Positions 41,840 through 49,574 of a DNA stretch of 64,000 nt are shown here, in pieces (positions within the stretch are counted from its first letter, which is position 1; the number at the start of each line of letters is the position of its first letter). The translations under genes and the position numbers were made by a program. Origin of the DNA: Halobacterium salinarum DSM 3754 (GTDB taxonomy: Archaea; Halobacteriota; Halobacteria; Halobacteriales; Halobacteriaceae); NCBI RefSeq assembly GCF_008124605.1, contig NZ_VRYN01000001.1, forward strand, positions 124,001-188,000. Direction: 5' to 3'. Below the pieces are notes generated by a model. The model ran no database searches. It was not told the origin of the DNA and saw nothing but the letters and a program-made list of their open reading frames with translations.

Positions 41840-41942
41840 GTCAGCGGGACAGCTATCGGTTCCCGTCGGCGTTCAAGTATGCTTCGAGACCGAGCGAGCG
41901 CACAGCCGACGGCAGGCTATCGGACACAACGACGGTGAGAAA

Positions 41943-42000
41943 TGCGCTGGCTGGGATTTGAACCCAGGTTGTGACCATGGCAAGGTCACGTGATACCACT
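41943..42000 (-). repeat. attR: 3' fragment of tRNA-Gly
   Basis: It matches 56 of 58 bases at the 3' end of the intact tRNA-Gly gene, including the whole anticodon arm and T-arm. The two differences (41952 and 41966) are the two partners of one T-stem pair, U-A here and G-C in the intact gene. Upstream, 42001-42013 still aligns base for base in length but has lost D-stem pairing, so it is not a working tRNA. A direct repeat partner lies at 49504-49561. Confidence 0.85.
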
Positions 42001-42171: not shown

Positions 42172-42549
42172 CTAAATAACGTGTGAGAGACTCCTTACAA
42201 TACCCATTATACAAAGTACGACCCCGACGCCGAGGAGAAGTCCAGTGATAATGCGGAGTCGGTTCGTACTTTCACGCTTTCCAAGTAGCTGTGTGAATCC
42301 ATCTATACCACCCGGAATCAGGAGAATTCCGCCCAGAATAAGAGACGGTTCAGGATTGAGTGGAAGGGACCATACCAACGTAACCAGGACGGTAAGAATT
42401 CCACTTGTGTACATACCAGTACATCGGGCACACAGTCCGAAGTATCGCCCACGATAGCTCAGTGACCTATCTGGTCGGGAATGACAGAGCGGATATGGTC
42501 GAAGGAACTTATTTGAGAGGCGAAAAACGCTGTCGAGAACTTCAGCCAT
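42172..42549 (-). CDS. DUF2085-like membrane protein
   Basis: 125 residues from ATG 42549, whose A is shared with the TGA stop of the preceding gene; an ATG 8 codons earlier is possible. LCHSRPDRSLSYRGRYFGLCARCTGMY near residues 21-47 is the Cys-rich signature of DUF2085 (CHxxPxRS ... CARCTGxY), followed by three hydrophobic helices. The family is small membrane proteins with a Cys cluster at the membrane surface; function unknown. Last gene of the element's four-gene membrane operon; AT-rich. Confidence 0.78.
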   Translation of the reverse strand: MAEVLDSVFRLSNKFLRPYPLCHSRPDRSLSYRGRYFGLCARCTGMYTSGILTVLVTLVWSLPLNPEPSLILGGILLIPGGIDGFTQLLGKRESTNRLRIITGLLLGVGVVLCIMGIVRSLSHVI

Positions 42550-42974
42550 CAATCTCCGAGTTCCGTCCCACAATCTATGCAGTAGTTATTCGTCTGCTCG
42601 TTTTGCCAGCCGCAAGACGAACATATCCTTTTGCGCGAGGAGTTGACGGTTTGTGTATTAGTACTTGATTTAGAAGCTGAGTCCAGATTATTCAGCCACT
42701 CTAACCCAGATTCAGTGAGAATCGCCCAGAGAGGTACTGAAACAAGCCCGCCAAACACCATAAACGAAAGCCAATTGCTGTAAGGGACAAACAGCATACT
42801 GGCAATACCACCAGCGAAGAACGCACCAATCACAATAACCCAAGCAGATACAGTGTTTATCTTCTCATGGAGAGGACCGTCATCATCATAGCTCGTTTCA
42901 ATTTTCTCCCCAGTCTCATCCTCCTCTGATGTGATGTCTCCTCCGTCTTTCTTGGAGTTGTTTCTATCACTCAT
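42549..42974 (-). CDS. Membrane-anchored zinc-ribbon protein 3
   Basis: 141 residues. An acidic N-terminus (1-40), two hydrophobic helices (about 43-63 and 69-86), a Ser/Thr-rich linker and a C-terminal zinc ribbon, CSSCGWQNEQTNNYCIDCG. The ribbon shares the pattern C-x2-C-G-[WM]-Q-N-x4-N-x-C-x-D-C-G with the two upstream genes. Overlaps the upstream gene by 8 bp and the DUF2085 gene by 1 nt. AT-rich, unlike the core genome. No known family name; function unknown. Confidence 0.75.
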   Translation of the reverse strand: MSDRNNSKKDGGDITSEEDETGEKIETSYDDDGPLHEKINTVSAWVIVIGAFFAGGIASMLFVPYSNWLSFMVFGGLVSVPLWAILTESGLEWLNNLDSASKSSTNTQTVNSSRKRICSSCGWQNEQTNNYCIDCGTELGD

Positions 42975-43470
42975 TAGATGGTTTCAATTCCTTACCACAG
43001 TCGTTACAAAAATTATTTGATTGGAGGTTCTGCCAACCACAATTTTGGCAGATAGCGTTCCGCTTTGATGACTTTGAACCACTCTCCTGTTGTTGGCCTG
43101 CCACTCCGCCAGATTGCTGTTTAAATTCCTTCATAAACTGAAGGCCAGGTTTGGTCATATGTGCAGAAGCAACCAGAGTTATAATAACTCCAAATATAAC
43201 TGCCCCAATAGTACTGAAACCAGCAAGACCAAAAACACCTGCACCAATAAGTGCAGAAATCAAACCGCTACCAAGAATAAATGCATATCTTTTGTAATCC
43301 TCCATTTCTTGTATATCCTCCTCCATCTTCTCCCATTTCGAATTATAATATTTTTCTCGGACTTCCTCTATTGCGTCTGCCGTCTCCGAGATTCCTCTGT
43401 CTGAGTTCCTAATGCGCTCAGCTTCTTCCTCAAACTTTTCTCTGCGGTCTTTATTGGTGTTCTCAGTCAT
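42967..43470 (-). CDS. Membrane-anchored zinc-ribbon protein 2
   Basis: 167 residues from ATG 43470 (MTENTNKDRREKF). A long helical, charged N-terminus likely to form a coiled coil (10-65), two hydrophobic helices (about 68-90 and 93-112), then a Gln/Ser-rich linker and the ribbon CQNCGWQNLQSNNFCNDCG. Overlaps both neighbours by 8 bp. The cytoplasmic coiled coil suggests self-assembly or a protein partner. AT-rich; no family recognised. Confidence 0.75.
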   Translation of the reverse strand: MTENTNKDRREKFEEEAERIRNSDRGISETADAIEEVREKYYNSKWEKMEEDIQEMEDYKRYAFILGSGLISALIGAGVFGLAGFSTIGAVIFGVIITLVASAHMTKPGLQFMKEFKQQSGGVAGQQQESGSKSSKRNAICQNCGWQNLQSNNFCNDCGKELKPSNE

Positions 43471-43699
43471 CAGATTCCCCAGAGTCAGGCTTAAATGAGA
43501 AACCGCAGTCTCCACAGTGGTTTGCCTCCGAAGGATTCTGCATACCACAGTCCGGACAGATTCGTTTCGGCTTGGAACTACTGTTGTCAGAAACCGTAAT
43601 CTGTTGTTGCTGTTGCTGCTTAGAGCCACAGCACCCGACCACCCCGACGCCGAGGAGTGCTAATAGGGCTGTTGTAGCTCCTGTAATCTCAATAAACAT
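43463..43699 (-). CDS. Membrane-anchored zinc-ribbon protein 1
   Basis: 78 residues: one N-terminal hydrophobic helix (4-22) ending in GCCG, a Gln run (KQQQQQQ), and the ribbon CPDCGMQNPSEANHCGDCG near residues 48-66. First gene of the four-gene membrane operon; a TATA-like ACTTTATCC lies on the minus strand at 43732-43740, about 36 bp upstream. The Cys pair after the helix could be lipidated, but the sequence is not a clear lipobox. Confidence 0.7.
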   Translation of the reverse strand: MFIEITGATTALLALLGVGVVGCCGSKQQQQQQITVSDNSSSKPKRICPDCGMQNPSEANHCGDCGFSFKPDSGESDD

Positions 43700-43812
43700 G
43701 ACGTAGAGTGTGTCAACTCTCTCAGGAGTATGGATAAAGTCTACGATGGCGTTTCAGTTATCGAAATCGTGAAGACTACTCCCGAAAGAATGTCTGACAG
43801 ATTGGGTTATCG

Positions 43813-43929
43813 TCAGGGCGTCATGTTTTGTTCGGCCTCCTGTTCATAGACGCGGTCGGGGTCTGGTTCCTTCTCTGGGTCTTCGTCGCCAATATCGCCG
43901 AGGTGTGCGGGGTCGCGTTCGAGCGCCAT
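43813..43929 (-). CDS. 38-residue acidic microprotein coupled to the SWIM gene
   Basis: The ATG at 43929 shares its A with the TAA stop of the SWIM gene; the stop is at 43813-43815. The product (MALERDPAHLGDIGDEDPEK...) is strongly acidic and Pro/Asp/Glu-rich, the composition of real haloarchaeal proteins. No domain is recognised. The shared stop-start base is the main support. Confidence 0.55.
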   Translation of the reverse strand: MALERDPAHLGDIGDEDPEKEPDPDRVYEQEAEQNMTP

Positions 43930-44426
43930 TACTGTCCCTCCATGTACTCGAAACAATCGAAGCACGGTAGGCTATCGCCGTTCGAGCCATCACACCAGTC
44001 GTTATCGCACTCTCCCCGTTTCGACGCATCGAGTGGCGGAGAATCATCGTCGGATTCGGCGACAATACCACCGTCTGCTGCGGCACGAACAGGATTGGTT
44101 GAGGTATGCGTGCCGAGCTGGGGGTCGATGGCGTCGGCGTTCGTCCACTCGGGAATGAGCGTTTCACCAGTCGCGTAACGTACACGGCGTTCGTGCTTAC
44201 ACGAGTCGTCGGCGGCGAGGTTATGGCGGGCGTCCGGACAGTCACACGCGCCCTCACGAGCGTCTACGAGGTACTCCGAACCGCTTTCGGATACGACGAG
44301 GTAGAGGTCGTCTGCGTCGTTGACTCTCCCTGTGTCGGGGAGAACGGTCATTTTCTCGGTGAGCGCGCGGATTGCACGCTTCGGTAGGTCGGTGGGATTT
44401 TCACCCGTCAGATTGTAGGCTGTCAT
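43929..44426 (-). CDS. SWIM zinc-finger protein
   Basis: 165 residues from ATG 44426 (MTAYNLTGENPTDLPKRA). A strand-rich N-terminus (DDLYLVVSESGSEYLVDAREGA) runs into CDCPDARHNLAADDSCKH, the CxCx(n)CxH SWIM finger. A second Cys cluster at the C-terminus (CDNDWCDG, CFDCFEY) is likely another metal site. SWIM proteins of this kind are common on haloarchaeal plasmids and proviruses, and probably bind DNA or protein; no target is evident. Confidence 0.8.
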   Translation of the reverse strand: MTAYNLTGENPTDLPKRAIRALTEKMTVLPDTGRVNDADDLYLVVSESGSEYLVDAREGACDCPDARHNLAADDSCKHERRVRYATGETLIPEWTNADAIDPQLGTHTSTNPVRAAADGGIVAESDDDSPPLDASKRGECDNDWCDGSNGDSLPCFDCFEYMEGQ

Positions 44427-44531
44427 GCTTCTGAGTCCCAGAAGCGCGGTCGTGTGTACCAGCACACGGCCATTTCTGCGATGGCGTGCCGCGCTTCCTA
44501 CTCACAAGTATATGCGCCATGCACTTAATAC

Positions 44532-44597: not shown

Positions 44598-44828
44598 ATG
44601 GCGAGACGCGCCCTGCTAACCGACCGAGAGCGTGAACTCATCGAGGGCGGAGACGACGTTGATGAAGACCTCCGCTATCAAGCCATCTCCCGAGTTCGAC
44701 GGAAGATTAACGAAGAACTCACGACCGATGTCGAAGTCCTACAGGAGCAGCACCCACAGTTGCTTGAAGAACTCCGAGAAGTAGTGTGTAGCCAGCCAAG
44801 TGAACAACCCGAGGATTCGAACGCATAG
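44598..44828 (+). CDS. Small conserved haloarchaeal mobile-element protein
   Basis: 76 residues from ATG 44598 (MARRALLTDRERELIEG). Helical throughout: RYQAISRVRRKINEELTTDVEVLQEQHPQLLEELREVVC. I have seen this ISRVRxKIxEEL-type protein repeatedly next to integrases and Rep genes on haloarchaeal elements, but know no function. The start was chosen because it begins the conserved part; an in-frame ATG at 44541 lies inside the palindromes. Confidence 0.72.
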   Translation: MARRALLTDRERELIEGGDDVDEDLRYQAISRVRRKINEELTTDVEVLQEQHPQLLEELREVVCSQPSEQPEDSNA

Positions 44829-45524: not shown

Positions 45525-45755
45525 ATGGGAGATAAACGGCATGTGGATGACACTGATTCTCCGATGGCAAATATCCACAACCGTCGCGATGGAGAACTAC
45601 TCTCAAAAGAGGAAGCGGAGAAATCCGTAGAGGATGACTCCTCCGAGACCCACCGTCAGCGTGAACCGACTGAGGATGAAGAGGAATTAGATGAAGAGGA
45701 GAAGAAGGAGAAGATTGCAGCAAAGTATGCAAAACGATATTCTAAGCACTGGTAG
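45525..45755 (+). CDS. Small highly charged protein
   Basis: 76 residues from ATG 45525 (MGDKRHVDDTDSPMAN). Almost wholly hydrophilic, with an acidic run EPTEDEEELDEEEKKEKIAAKYAKRY, likely helical or disordered. A TATA-like box about 30 bp upstream supports near-leaderless expression. No family is recognised; small charged proteins of this sort are usual on haloarchaeal elements. Confidence 0.55.
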   Translation: MGDKRHVDDTDSPMANIHNRRDGELLSKEEAEKSVEDDSSETHRQREPTEDEEELDEEEKKEKIAAKYAKRYSKHW

Positions 45756-46314: not shown

Positions 46315-47967
46315 TCACGTGGGTTTGGGAGGAACGTCCACGTCGTCATACTTTTCGAAATCGGGGTTCTCGACAATCCCTTTCAGATTCCTCCACGTGA
46401 CCTCTGGCTTGAACGTTGAGCCGAACTGCTCCTCGAACCACTCCCACGTTGGTTGCCAGCCATTCTGAAGGAAGCGGCACGCAAGACTCACCTTCTCCCC
46501 GCGCGAGAGCGTGTGAATGTCTCCCTGTTCGGCTTTCCACTGAAGGGCTTCCACGTCATTACCCTGATTCTCACGAGCGGGCCAAATCGTCCCAATTTCG
46601 TTGCTGTACTCGCCAGACCTCGATGCAGTTGTCTCCCTCGAGCTGGACGTGGCGGAACCAGACGCGCCAATATCGTATCCCTGCTCGGCGAGATAGTTCA
46701 GCGCCATATCTCGCCCGTCCTCATCGCGTCTGAGTGCGTGGCCGACCTCGGTGGCTTCCCGCGAGGAGACGCTGAATATTCGGGAACTCCCGCTTTTCCC
46801 ACCGATAATGACGACCTTCTCCCCCGGTGAGTAGTCCCACTTTCGGTAGTCCATCTTCGACAACTGGAGCGGCGCGTGAACGTCGTGTTTCGTGAATCCG
46901 CCGTTGCATCCGATAGCACCGTAGAAGTACGCCGGCACCATCGTCGCCGCACCACGCTTATCTCGCCGTGCAAACGCTCCGTCTTTCACGCGAAGCGCCG
47001 CGACACTCCGCGGGTTTCCCGAGGCGAGAGCATACGGGGAGAACTCTTGAGTGTTGTACATCGACCACTCTGGAACGTCAGCAGGGTCTTCGGGATGCTC
47101 ATCAACGCGCTCGATAAGGGGAGTCTCGATTTCGTCTTCCGACTCGTCAGGCTTGAACTCCAAGAGCGTCTTATCGGAGGCGTGTTCCTGAAGCAGATTC
47201 TTCGAGGCGTCCATGTCAGGGCCGCTTGTACCGGCGGTTAGGCGTGCCTGACCGAATACATCCCACAGTACATCCGCATACGTTGCAGGCGTGCTTGGGG
47301 TCGCTCCGTTCGCCTCACGGAAGATGCGGGTTCTGTCCCATTCCGTTTCAATTTCGACCTTCGGGATGCCGGTCTTCGCGTGTTCGACGCCCGGAATTCG
47401 GAATATGCGCTTCTCTGAGTACAGACCCAAATCGAGGTTTGCACCAGTCTCCCTGCAGTACGACTTAGCCAGTTCCTTCAGCCGCTCCCTGTCGGCTTCA
47501 CCGGACACGAACCGAGGAACGTGAACGTGGATGGAGCGTCTGCCCGAGAAGTACAACGTACACGTGTCAAACGGAACGTCGAGGTAGTCCTCCACGAACT
47601 CTCGGAACCACGAGAGAAGCGTTTCAGGCCCCTCCTCATGGTACACGTCGGATTCGATGTGAATGGGGTAGAGGACACGGTCGTCAGCCTGACATTCATC
47701 CTGTATCTCTGTGGCCTTCATCTTGTAGCCGCCACCCACTCGGTAGGGATTTTCCATATCGCGTTGGTACTCGTACTGTTCTCTCGGGATTTTGTAGATA
47801 GGACTGACAGTCTCCGCACCATCGGGAATCGGCTCGGAAATCATCTGGAGTCTGGGCGCTCGATGTGGTCCCTTCCCGTCCGGGAATCCGTACTGAACGC
47901 ACAGCAAGTCGTTGTTATTCGATGTTGTCGCTGTGCTGGTCGAAGACGTAGATGTATCTGTATTCAT
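46315..47967 (-). CDS. Primase-like replication protein
   Basis: 550 residues. After a Ser/Thr-rich start, residues ~70-230 resemble the archaeo-eukaryotic primase fold: YPIHIESDVY, CTLYFSGRRSIHVHVPRF (the sGxxGxHV strand) and EKRIFRIPGVEHAKTGIPKVEIE. The middle (to ~400) is mixed, and the C-terminal ~120 residues may be a PriCT-like helical module (SRGEKVSLACRFLQNGWQPTWEWFEEQFG). No helicase Walker motif is seen. It probably starts replication of the excised element. Confidence 0.7.
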   Translation of the reverse strand: MNTDTSTSSTSTATTSNNNDLLCVQYGFPDGKGPHRAPRLQMISEPIPDGAETVSPIYKIPREQYEYQRDMENPYRVGGGYKMKATEIQDECQADDRVLYPIHIESDVYHEEGPETLLSWFREFVEDYLDVPFDTCTLYFSGRRSIHVHVPRFVSGEADRERLKELAKSYCRETGANLDLGLYSEKRIFRIPGVEHAKTGIPKVEIETEWDRTRIFREANGATPSTPATYADVLWDVFGQARLTAGTSGPDMDASKNLLQEHASDKTLLEFKPDESEDEIETPLIERVDEHPEDPADVPEWSMYNTQEFSPYALASGNPRSVAALRVKDGAFARRDKRGAATMVPAYFYGAIGCNGGFTKHDVHAPLQLSKMDYRKWDYSPGEKVVIIGGKSGSSRIFSVSSREATEVGHALRRDEDGRDMALNYLAEQGYDIGASGSATSSSRETTASRSGEYSNEIGTIWPARENQGNDVEALQWKAEQGDIHTLSRGEKVSLACRFLQNGWQPTWEWFEEQFGSTFKPEVTWRNLKGIVENPDFEKYDDVDVPPKPT

Positions 47968-48234: not shown

Positions 48235-49368
48235 CTACCACTTCGAGTTGATTTTGTTGTGCCGGCTCTCCGTTCCCGAATGGGCGTACCCCAGCGTCGT
48301 CTCCACCTTCTTGTGGCGCAGCTGCTCCTGTGCGTCGTGGATGTTTTCCTCGTCAGCCCAAACCGTAGCACACCCATGCCGAATGGAATAGAATGAAAGG
48401 TCGCGACCAGCAGGCTGAATCCCTGCCGCGTCTATGAGTTGATTCAGCAGGTAGTTCAGCGAGGACGAACCGTAGGCGTTCCCTTTCTCGTTGAGCCATA
48501 ACTCGTTGCGACCGTCATACTTCTCGTACCGGGAACGTTCATCGCTCCACCTCCGTAAGGCACGAACGCTCTTGTTCGACAGAACGCACTTCCAGTTGTC
48601 TTCGTTCTTGCTGGACTCCTCTTTCGGAATGTCAAGCGTCGAGTCCTTGAAGTTCACCCAACTGGTTTTCGCACGCCCAACCTCAATAGGTCGGAGTCCA
48701 CAGTCCAGAGAAACAGAAACGAGAGAAGGTATCTTCATCGAGTTTGCTTGTCCAAAGTCCTCTGGCCCAACGTCTTCCTTCGACTTTTCGAGACGCTGTG
48801 CGAGGTGCGCCTTCAGTTCGTCGCGCTCCTCGGGAGAACACGAGTGGTAGTGTTTCACGGTTCCGTGCGCGAGTGCGGCCTCGTAGAGTGGGCGGAACTC
48901 CTCTTTCTTGAAGTAGTCCCGGTTGGTAACAGACGGTTCGTTTAGGTCGATGTTGCACTCCCACTCTATGTGCTTCCCCTTCTCGTGGTTGTAGTACGCG
49001 AAGATTCGCTTGATGGTCTTCACGAAATTGTTGAGGTTCGCATCGGTGTACTCGCTGTACCGACCGAGTTCCTTCATCAGTTCGTCGGCATCCTCCTCAG
49101 TGAGTTCCGTCGTATATTCATGCTGGTTCCACAGCCAGCGCATGATTTGGTCGATTTTGTAGTTGGAGTTACGGAGCGTTTCCTCTGAGTATCCGCGTAG
49201 CCGGTCGGGGTCCTTTCCCTCGAAGTAGAGCCACTCCAGAAGGTCGCACTTCCAAACTTCGTAATCATTCTGCGCGCGTGCGTGTTGATTAGAAAGCCGC
49301 TCTATGGTTTCGTCTGCGAGGATGGGAAAGTCGAAGTCAATATCCCGTGCTTCCTCCTCGAAGTTCAT
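48235..49368 (-). CDS. Tyrosine recombinase (integrase)
   Basis: 377 residues from ATG 49368 (MNFEEEARDIDFDFP); the frame is open upstream through the tRNA but that is not coding. N-terminal helical SAM-like core-binding domain (~25-145), catalytic domain after ~150. Catalytic residues: Arg226 (GLRPIEVG), Arg330 in FYSIRHG, His352 (LRHKKVETT) and nucleophile Tyr361 (LGYAH). The usual box II His is Tyr327. Adjacent to the intact tRNA-Gly, as expected for the enzyme that integrated this element. Confidence 0.88.
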   Translation of the reverse strand: MNFEEEARDIDFDFPILADETIERLSNQHARAQNDYEVWKCDLLEWLYFEGKDPDRLRGYSEETLRNSNYKIDQIMRWLWNQHEYTTELTEEDADELMKELGRYSEYTDANLNNFVKTIKRIFAYYNHEKGKHIEWECNIDLNEPSVTNRDYFKKEEFRPLYEAALAHGTVKHYHSCSPEERDELKAHLAQRLEKSKEDVGPEDFGQANSMKIPSLVSVSLDCGLRPIEVGRAKTSWVNFKDSTLDIPKEESSKNEDNWKCVLSNKSVRALRRWSDERSRYEKYDGRNELWLNEKGNAYGSSSLNYLLNQLIDAAGIQPAGRDLSFYSIRHGCATVWADEENIHDAQEQLRHKKVETTLGYAHSGTESRHNKINSKW

Positions 49369-49492: not shown

Positions 49493-49502
49493 AGCGCCTG
49501 AA
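49493..49502 (-). repeat. Candidate integrase arm site (right copy)
   Basis: TTCAGGCGCT on the minus strand, identical to 42009-42018. It forms one side of the hairpin AGGCGC-TAAA-GCGCCT just 3' of tRNA-Gly, which could also end the tRNA transcript. Confidence 0.4.
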
Positions 49503-49503
49503 G

Positions 49504-49574
49504 TGCGCTGGCGGGGATTTGAACCCCGGTTGTGACCATGGCAAGGTCACGTGATACCACTACACTACCAGCGC
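49504..49574 (-). tRNA. tRNA-Gly(GCC)
   Basis: Acceptor GCGCTGG / CCAGCGC, anticodon stem TGACC / GGTCA with loop TTGCCAT (anticodon GCC), T-arm CGGGG-TTCAAAT-CCCCG, discriminator A at 49504. No intron. It has a good upstream TATA (ATTTATATA near 49598-49606, minus strand). The 3' part came from the element, to judge by the T-stem pair that differs from attR. Confidence 0.95.

Follow-up and report, generated by a model that had tools for sequence, protein, structure and literature searches.

The nearest published idea to the operon described here is the pairing of a lipocone domain with a ribbon-TM protein (PMC12419801). DUF2085, the family of the operon's last gene, appears in the literature that we searched only in passing, in an unrelated paper; we found no account of its function there, and no mention of COG3815. 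Here we describe a repeated link between archaeal DUF2085 genes and membrane zinc-ribbon genes, seen both in chromosomal loci and in a mobile operon whose DUF2085 forms a clade of its own. One copy of this operon lies in a window of 64,000 nt from Halobacterium salinarum DSM 3754, the whole stretch of DNA that was analysed; unprefixed coordinates are positions in this window, position 1 being its first letter. The genetic linkage and the mobility of the operon are well supported, and its function is proposed more cautiously below.

The operon (43699-42172, minus strand) consists of four genes with successive overlaps of 8, 8 and 1 nt. The close coupling proposed in a first-pass annotation of this DNA is therefore borne out by the ORF coordinates:

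g1, 43463-43699, minus strand: 78 aa; N-terminal membrane segment, invariant CC, Q6 tract and C-terminal zinc ribbon
g2, 42967-43470, minus strand: 167 aa; charged N-terminus, two membrane segments, Q-rich linker and zinc ribbon (start taken as the ATG of MTENTNK; the mechanical ORF call begins further upstream)
g3, 42549-42974, minus strand: 141 aa; acidic N-terminus, two membrane segments and zinc ribbon
g4, 42172-42549, minus strand: 125 aa; DUF2085 membrane protein (PF09858; start taken as the ATG of MAEVLDS)

The ribbon that the same annotation had described, C-x2-C-G-[WM]-Q-N-x4-N-x-C-x-D-C-G, is present in g1, g2 and g3 of the window, and hydropathy marks a single membrane segment in g1 and a pair in both g2 and g3, in agreement with the one or two helices claimed for each. 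Across homologs, the ribbon core reads C-x2-C-G-x-x-N-x6-C-x2-C. The Zn_Ribbon_1 profile (PF13240, cut-off 25 bits) recognises g2 and g3 (27.7 and 27.6 bits, respectively), and g1 falls below the cut-off at 18.1 bits with all four cysteines in complete spacing. Against the RanBP2-type zinc finger (PF00641, cut-off 27), g3 and g1 remain below threshold (21.9 and 20.3 bits) and are alike in spacing alone. No TM2 profile match and no G-x2-G-x-H-x-F-Y motif is found in g1-g3, and a PDB sequence search with g1 returns only generic ribbons, such as eL40. The AlphaFold model of g1 is of low confidence (pLDDT 66), with a membrane helix at residues 3-20 and the ribbon visible and the Q tract unfolded. 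The ribbon heads are likely to bind metal and to face the cytoplasm. A lipobox-like VGC/C in g1 might be read as marking a lipoprotein; we hold this unlikely, since a charged n-region and a Tat motif are both missing. The identity between g2 and g3 (36% over 72 aa, E 4e-12) identifies g3 as a diverged duplicate of g2 rather than a chance likeness, and the g2 N-terminus (residues about 8-60), to go by its sequence, plausibly forms a coiled coil.

Between membrane and ribbon, every g1 homolog carries the invariant CC and then a run of six to nine glutamines, of which five or more align throughout, and several g2 proteins have Q5-6 at the same place relative to their own ribbon. The g1 tract is encoded by a mixture of CAA and CAG codons whose order varies between loci, indicating that it is kept at the protein level rather than by DNA slippage, and we reject replication slippage as its explanation. 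For so small an archaeal membrane protein, a polyQ tract kept by selection is in itself unusual.

The fourth gene scores 92.1 bits against DUF2085 (cut-off 25; E 2.9e-26) and covers profile positions 1-89 of 90. Its assignment to this family in the first-pass annotation is thus confirmed; g4 carries C22-H23 and C40-x2-C43. In the family, the Cys/His site consists of an upstream Cys(-His) and a C-x-R-C before the first long helix. C22, H23, C40 and C43 are invariant throughout the mobile clade; outside it, the histidine is shifted (CY), and the last cysteine is an aspartate in two methanogen paralogs. An AlphaFold model of g4 from a six-sequence alignment (pLDDT 83, pTM 0.74) shows a helix at the N-terminus and three long helices, together with a beta hairpin that separates the C22-H23 pair from C40-x2-C43. 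A fold search with this model found nothing in PDB or BFVD at E <= 0.001, and a PDB sequence search with g4 gave only chance-level matches.

The operon was thought to lie on an integrated element, and the att repeats, intact tRNA-Gly, integrase and G+C contrast that we find (0.47 in the operon versus about 0.69 in flanking host DNA) agree with this. The element is 7.56 kb long and inserted in tRNA-Gly, and it has the three features expected of a tRNA-integrating element, namely an integrase, an intact tRNA gene and an att repeat of the tRNA 3′ part. Its recognisable features are as follows:

41939-42000, minus strand: att repeat, displaced 3′ part of tRNA-Gly; the element's outer end on the operon side
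43813-43929, minus strand: 38-aa acidic protein MALERDPAH..., upstream of the operon in L048 too
43929-44429, minus strand: SWIM-like Cys/His protein (phrog_17897, E 5e-36), upstream of the operon on the same strand
44598-44828, plus strand: small protein MARRALLTDRERE... (phrog_26393, E 1.5e-24)
46315-47967, minus strand: primase-like protein of 550 aa (phrog_16345, E 4.5e-9)
48235-49368, minus strand: tyrosine integrase (PF00589, E 2.5e-16; phrog_1, E 2.4e-27), adjoining tRNA-Gly
49503-49574, minus strand: intact tRNA-Gly(gcc), the site of integration; the second att repeat (49500-49561) corresponds to its 3′ part

The displaced repeat and the tRNA-Gly are 88% identical over a 76-nt alignment, and the last 34 nt of their common part are identical. 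The SWIM-like protein has relatives in the tailed haloviruses BJ1 and Humcor1. Comparison of the element genes with Pfam and PHROGs revealed none of the genes that a complete provirus would have between its att sites, whether for capsid, portal, terminase or tail. The integrated operon ends 172 nt short of the far att site, and circularisation would therefore bring it next to attP, with the integrase on the other side. Two small plus-strand ORFs of the element share a 50-nt repeat that is 72% identical (44619-44668 and 45648-45697).

Among 391 haloarchaeal genomes, close g4 homologs (53-72% identity) occur in six others, each time with a ribbon membrane gene immediately upstream, which places the operon in 7 of the 391 with the window included. 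Further searches added G405, G425 (Haloferacaceae XH8; L056/L068), G480 (QS_4_69_31; L058/L069) and Halorubrum sp. Atlit-26R (L055); loci also cited here are those of Halobellus salinus (L048/L057), Halorutilus salinus (L050/L059) and G273 (L053/L168). The suggested search for the same operon on other haloarchaeal elements thus yielded ten further loci, and in all 11, window included, the order is g1, one or two g2/g3-type genes, then g4, the single g2/g3-type gene of L048 carrying two ribbons. The g1 homologs are 45-77% identical to that of the window, with the metal-ligand and polyQ positions invariant. In addition to the window element, tRNA att repeats bound the operon-carrying elements of L048 (39 bp), L051 (54 bp) and G273 (56 bp), and integrases homologous to the window's lie near the operon in L048, L049, L051, L052 and L058. 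Elsewhere, the operon lies next to tail genes in a provirus-like island (L068, in G425) or on islands where no integrase was recognised close by (L055, L067). Phage, plasmid and IMG/VR collections contained no match to g4, and plasmid collections none to g1. In the tree, element-borne DUF2085 proteins form a single clade (support 95/90) with hosts from several families.

The Halobellus salinus copy resides on an 11.2-kb tRNA-Gly element (L048:7756-18991) that also encodes an AspBHI-N/Mrr methyl-directed nuclease (Mrr E 3e-36), an HNH protein, a DUF6884 protein (PDC-M57A) and a 616-aa helicase/primase-like protein similar to one in L049. PH-domain-like proteins are encoded near DUF2085 at L052:10954-11463, L054:9234-9494 and L135:7672-8202; bPH_3 is above its cut-off in L052, and the calls in L054 and L135 were judged by eye.

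Two sister elements of the same genus (G078 and G139) occupy the same tRNA-Leu, with integrase regions 98% identical and the rest 77-84%. Behind the integrase, a stretch of 1.1 kb is taken up by the operon in G078 and by unrelated DNA in G139, an exact replacement; the G139 slot (L167:7720-9018) contains a lipoprotein/beta-propeller-like gene that is frame-disrupted and split into two ORFs. Because unrelated DNA takes the operon's exact place beside a near-identical integrase, the operon is exchangeable accessory (moron-type) cargo of small tRNA-integrating haloarchaeal elements. The first genes behind homologous integrases in other genomes are varied cargo, many of them unidentified. In G075 (C17, L172:5956-8356), a CBASS cyclase (PADLOC E 3e-102) and a Cap15-type effector (PF18153 E 7e-18) directly follow a tRNA-Thr integrase homologous to the window's, with a 256-aa uncharacterised protein next; the slot holds a McrA-like HNH nuclease in G117 and a PIN-domain protein in G116. 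Recognisable defence cargo is confined to about 4 of some 30 integrase loci. The integrase family is found in 70 of 195 genomes and the operon in 7 of 391, and a common integrase with a rare operon is as expected for exchangeable cargo.

Where pairs are close enough to measure, NG86 dN/dS is 0.05-0.11 for g4, 0.15 for g1 and 0.23 for g2; YN00 estimates are higher (0.09-0.40). g4 is under purifying selection, and so are g1 and g2 by these values. The exception to intact frames is the g2 homolog of Halorutilus salinus, which is interrupted by a TGA between the membrane part and the ribbon (L059:9820-9840). A lack of co-occurrence together with decay, named in the first-pass annotation as what would refute its reading, is not what we observe: co-occurrence is strong and g4 is conserved by selection.

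Similar pairings occur beyond these eleven loci. In two methanogen genomes of one genus, a DUF2085 gene is overlapped by a gene whose 115-aa product has membrane segments, a Q6 tract and a ribbon of the same type; the two products are 39% identical to g1 and 41% to g4, respectively. This pair is patchy, 101 genomes of the family yielding 2 strong matches. On haloarchaeal chromosomes, DUF2085 lies beside a same-strand zinc-ribbon-TM2 gene at 26 of 28 loci (L026-L047 and others; the scripted count of 25 missed L026, where an open frame extended over the neighbour), compared with 0 of 30 VanZ loci and 1 of 28 integrase loci as neighbour controls. DUF2085 is likewise beside a zinc-ribbon-TM2 gene at three methanogen loci. 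The mobile clade groups on the methanogen side (97/86), outside the haloarchaeal chromosomal clade, in a tree from a short alignment with many forks unresolved. A methanogen family (f25; L083-L086, L099-L102) has two divergent DUF2085 paralogs per genome with no ribbon neighbours, in some genomes within 1-2 kb of each other, and in two of these paralogs C-x-R-C reads C-x-R-D.

We propose that the products of the mobile operon may form a membrane complex that defends the host or excludes superinfection, a reading that is quite possible, if short of probable. The products of g1-g4 would assemble into one membrane complex, with g4 as the conserved core, its Cys/His metal site lying at the surface of the membrane, and the two or three membrane-anchored ribbons of g1-g3 as its cytoplasmic heads. 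The polyQ/CC segment of g1 could act as a membrane-proximal linker or a self-association element. The complex would protect the host of the element, and the niche of the element itself, from other viruses or elements, either by superinfection exclusion at the membrane or through ribbons that sense infection and a DUF2085 core that disturbs the membrane. The first-pass annotation had likewise envisaged a multi-subunit membrane complex, an inference well supported by the order and packing in eleven loci, the methanogen pair and the independent chromosomal link; of the roles it offered, superinfection exclusion is compatible with the cargo-slot evidence, and signalling or metal/redox sensing is a less likely alternative.

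An antiviral role, taken by itself, is a tentative choice that we make because of the company the operon keeps (CBASS, restriction nucleases), its patchiness and the faster change of g2/g3 than of g1/g4; none of these proves antiviral function. PADLOC-DB 2.0.0 has no match for g1-g4 at E <= 0.001, and NCBIfam (operon proteins) and PHROGs (g1, g3, g4) gave nothing informative. The small share of slots with recognisable defence cargo, the rarity of the operon and the interrupted g2 of Halorutilus also count against it. Nor is an antiviral role required of the mobile form, since the chromosomal pairing of DUF2085 with ZnR-TM2 points to an older, housekeeping role for the combination.

An older archaeal membrane module would be the source of the main rival, a membrane stress, redox or metal sensor or regulator carried as a host-fitness gene, which we consider rather unlikely. 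DUF2085 would sense membrane state or metal, the ribbons would relay to cytoplasmic partners, and the operon on elements would be a relative of the chromosomal pair that can be transferred. The strong chromosomal link in both haloarchaea and methanogens, outside obvious mobile elements, the Cys/His-rich sites in all parts and the PH-domain-like neighbours in L052, L054 and L135 are all consistent with sensing; however, the mobile clade sides with methanogen DUF2085 instead of the haloarchaeal chromosomal clade, no regulator or kinase is kept beside the operon, and a housekeeping role alone leaves the exchange with CBASS-type cargo unexplained. It is less likely still that the operon maintains its element, through addiction, control of excision or copy number, or entry exclusion against sister elements only. 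Its place beside attP and integrase in the circular form of several elements would suit such a device, but homologous elements exist without it, no toxin-antitoxin family matches, and it also occurs by the tail genes of L068 and on the islands of L055 and L067.

A membrane enzyme acting on lipids or headgroups, of the lipocone/VanZ kind with ribbon regulators, is disfavoured and very improbable. The D-x3-Q ... R ... N ... G pattern of DUF2085 recalls VanZ, and the published ribbon-TM pairing offers a precedent; against this, hhalign with a profile of 28 haloarchaeal VanZ proteins, a comparison that bears on VanZ only, gives a probability of 1.6%, which leaves DUF2085 as a VanZ relative unsupported, and the g4 model has no fold match in PDB or BFVD at E <= 0.001. 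Least credible of all is that these are neutral passengers in decay: the operon is rare and the Halorutilus g2 is interrupted, but frames are open elsewhere, NG86 dN/dS is 0.05-0.23 overall and the g1 ligand and glutamine positions are invariant, so that dN/dS and synteny largely refute it.

The full version of the preferred defence reading, a hitherto undescribed archaeal antiviral or exclusion system whose DUF2085 core is driven by polyQ-linked zinc ribbons and was mobilised from an older archaeal membrane module, is somewhat more doubtful. If true, it would give DUF2085 its first function, and the position of the operon in an exchangeable slot makes that function testable by simple transfer into a model haloarchaeon.

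Compared with known systems, the operon matches no known defence family and is a mobile membrane cargo built from known but uncharacterised domains. The two-gene system of a Skillet-2 lipocone and a single-TM zinc ribbon (PMC12419801) is likewise a conserved pair of a membrane domain and a single-TM ribbon protein, but DUF2085 has no detectable relation to the VanZ profile tested. CBASS and other haloarchaeal element cargo can occupy the same position behind a homologous integrase (G075), whereas the operon has no cyclase, nuclease or known effector. The chromosomal pair also sets a DUF2085 gene beside a membrane zinc-ribbon gene; its ribbons, however, are N-terminal and fused to a TM2-like domain, its DUF2085 is longer and in a separate clade, it has no polyQ, and none was on a mobile element among the loci examined. 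The operon's ribbons share C-x2-C-x3-N-x6-C-x2-C with Zn_Ribbon_1/DZR-type prokaryotic zinc ribbons and differ in being three membrane-anchored copies, with the g1 polyQ kept between membrane and ribbon. Finally, g4 is a clear member of DUF2085 (PF09858), distinguished by belonging to a subclade that is carried on mobile elements and has two or three ribbon proteins as partners.
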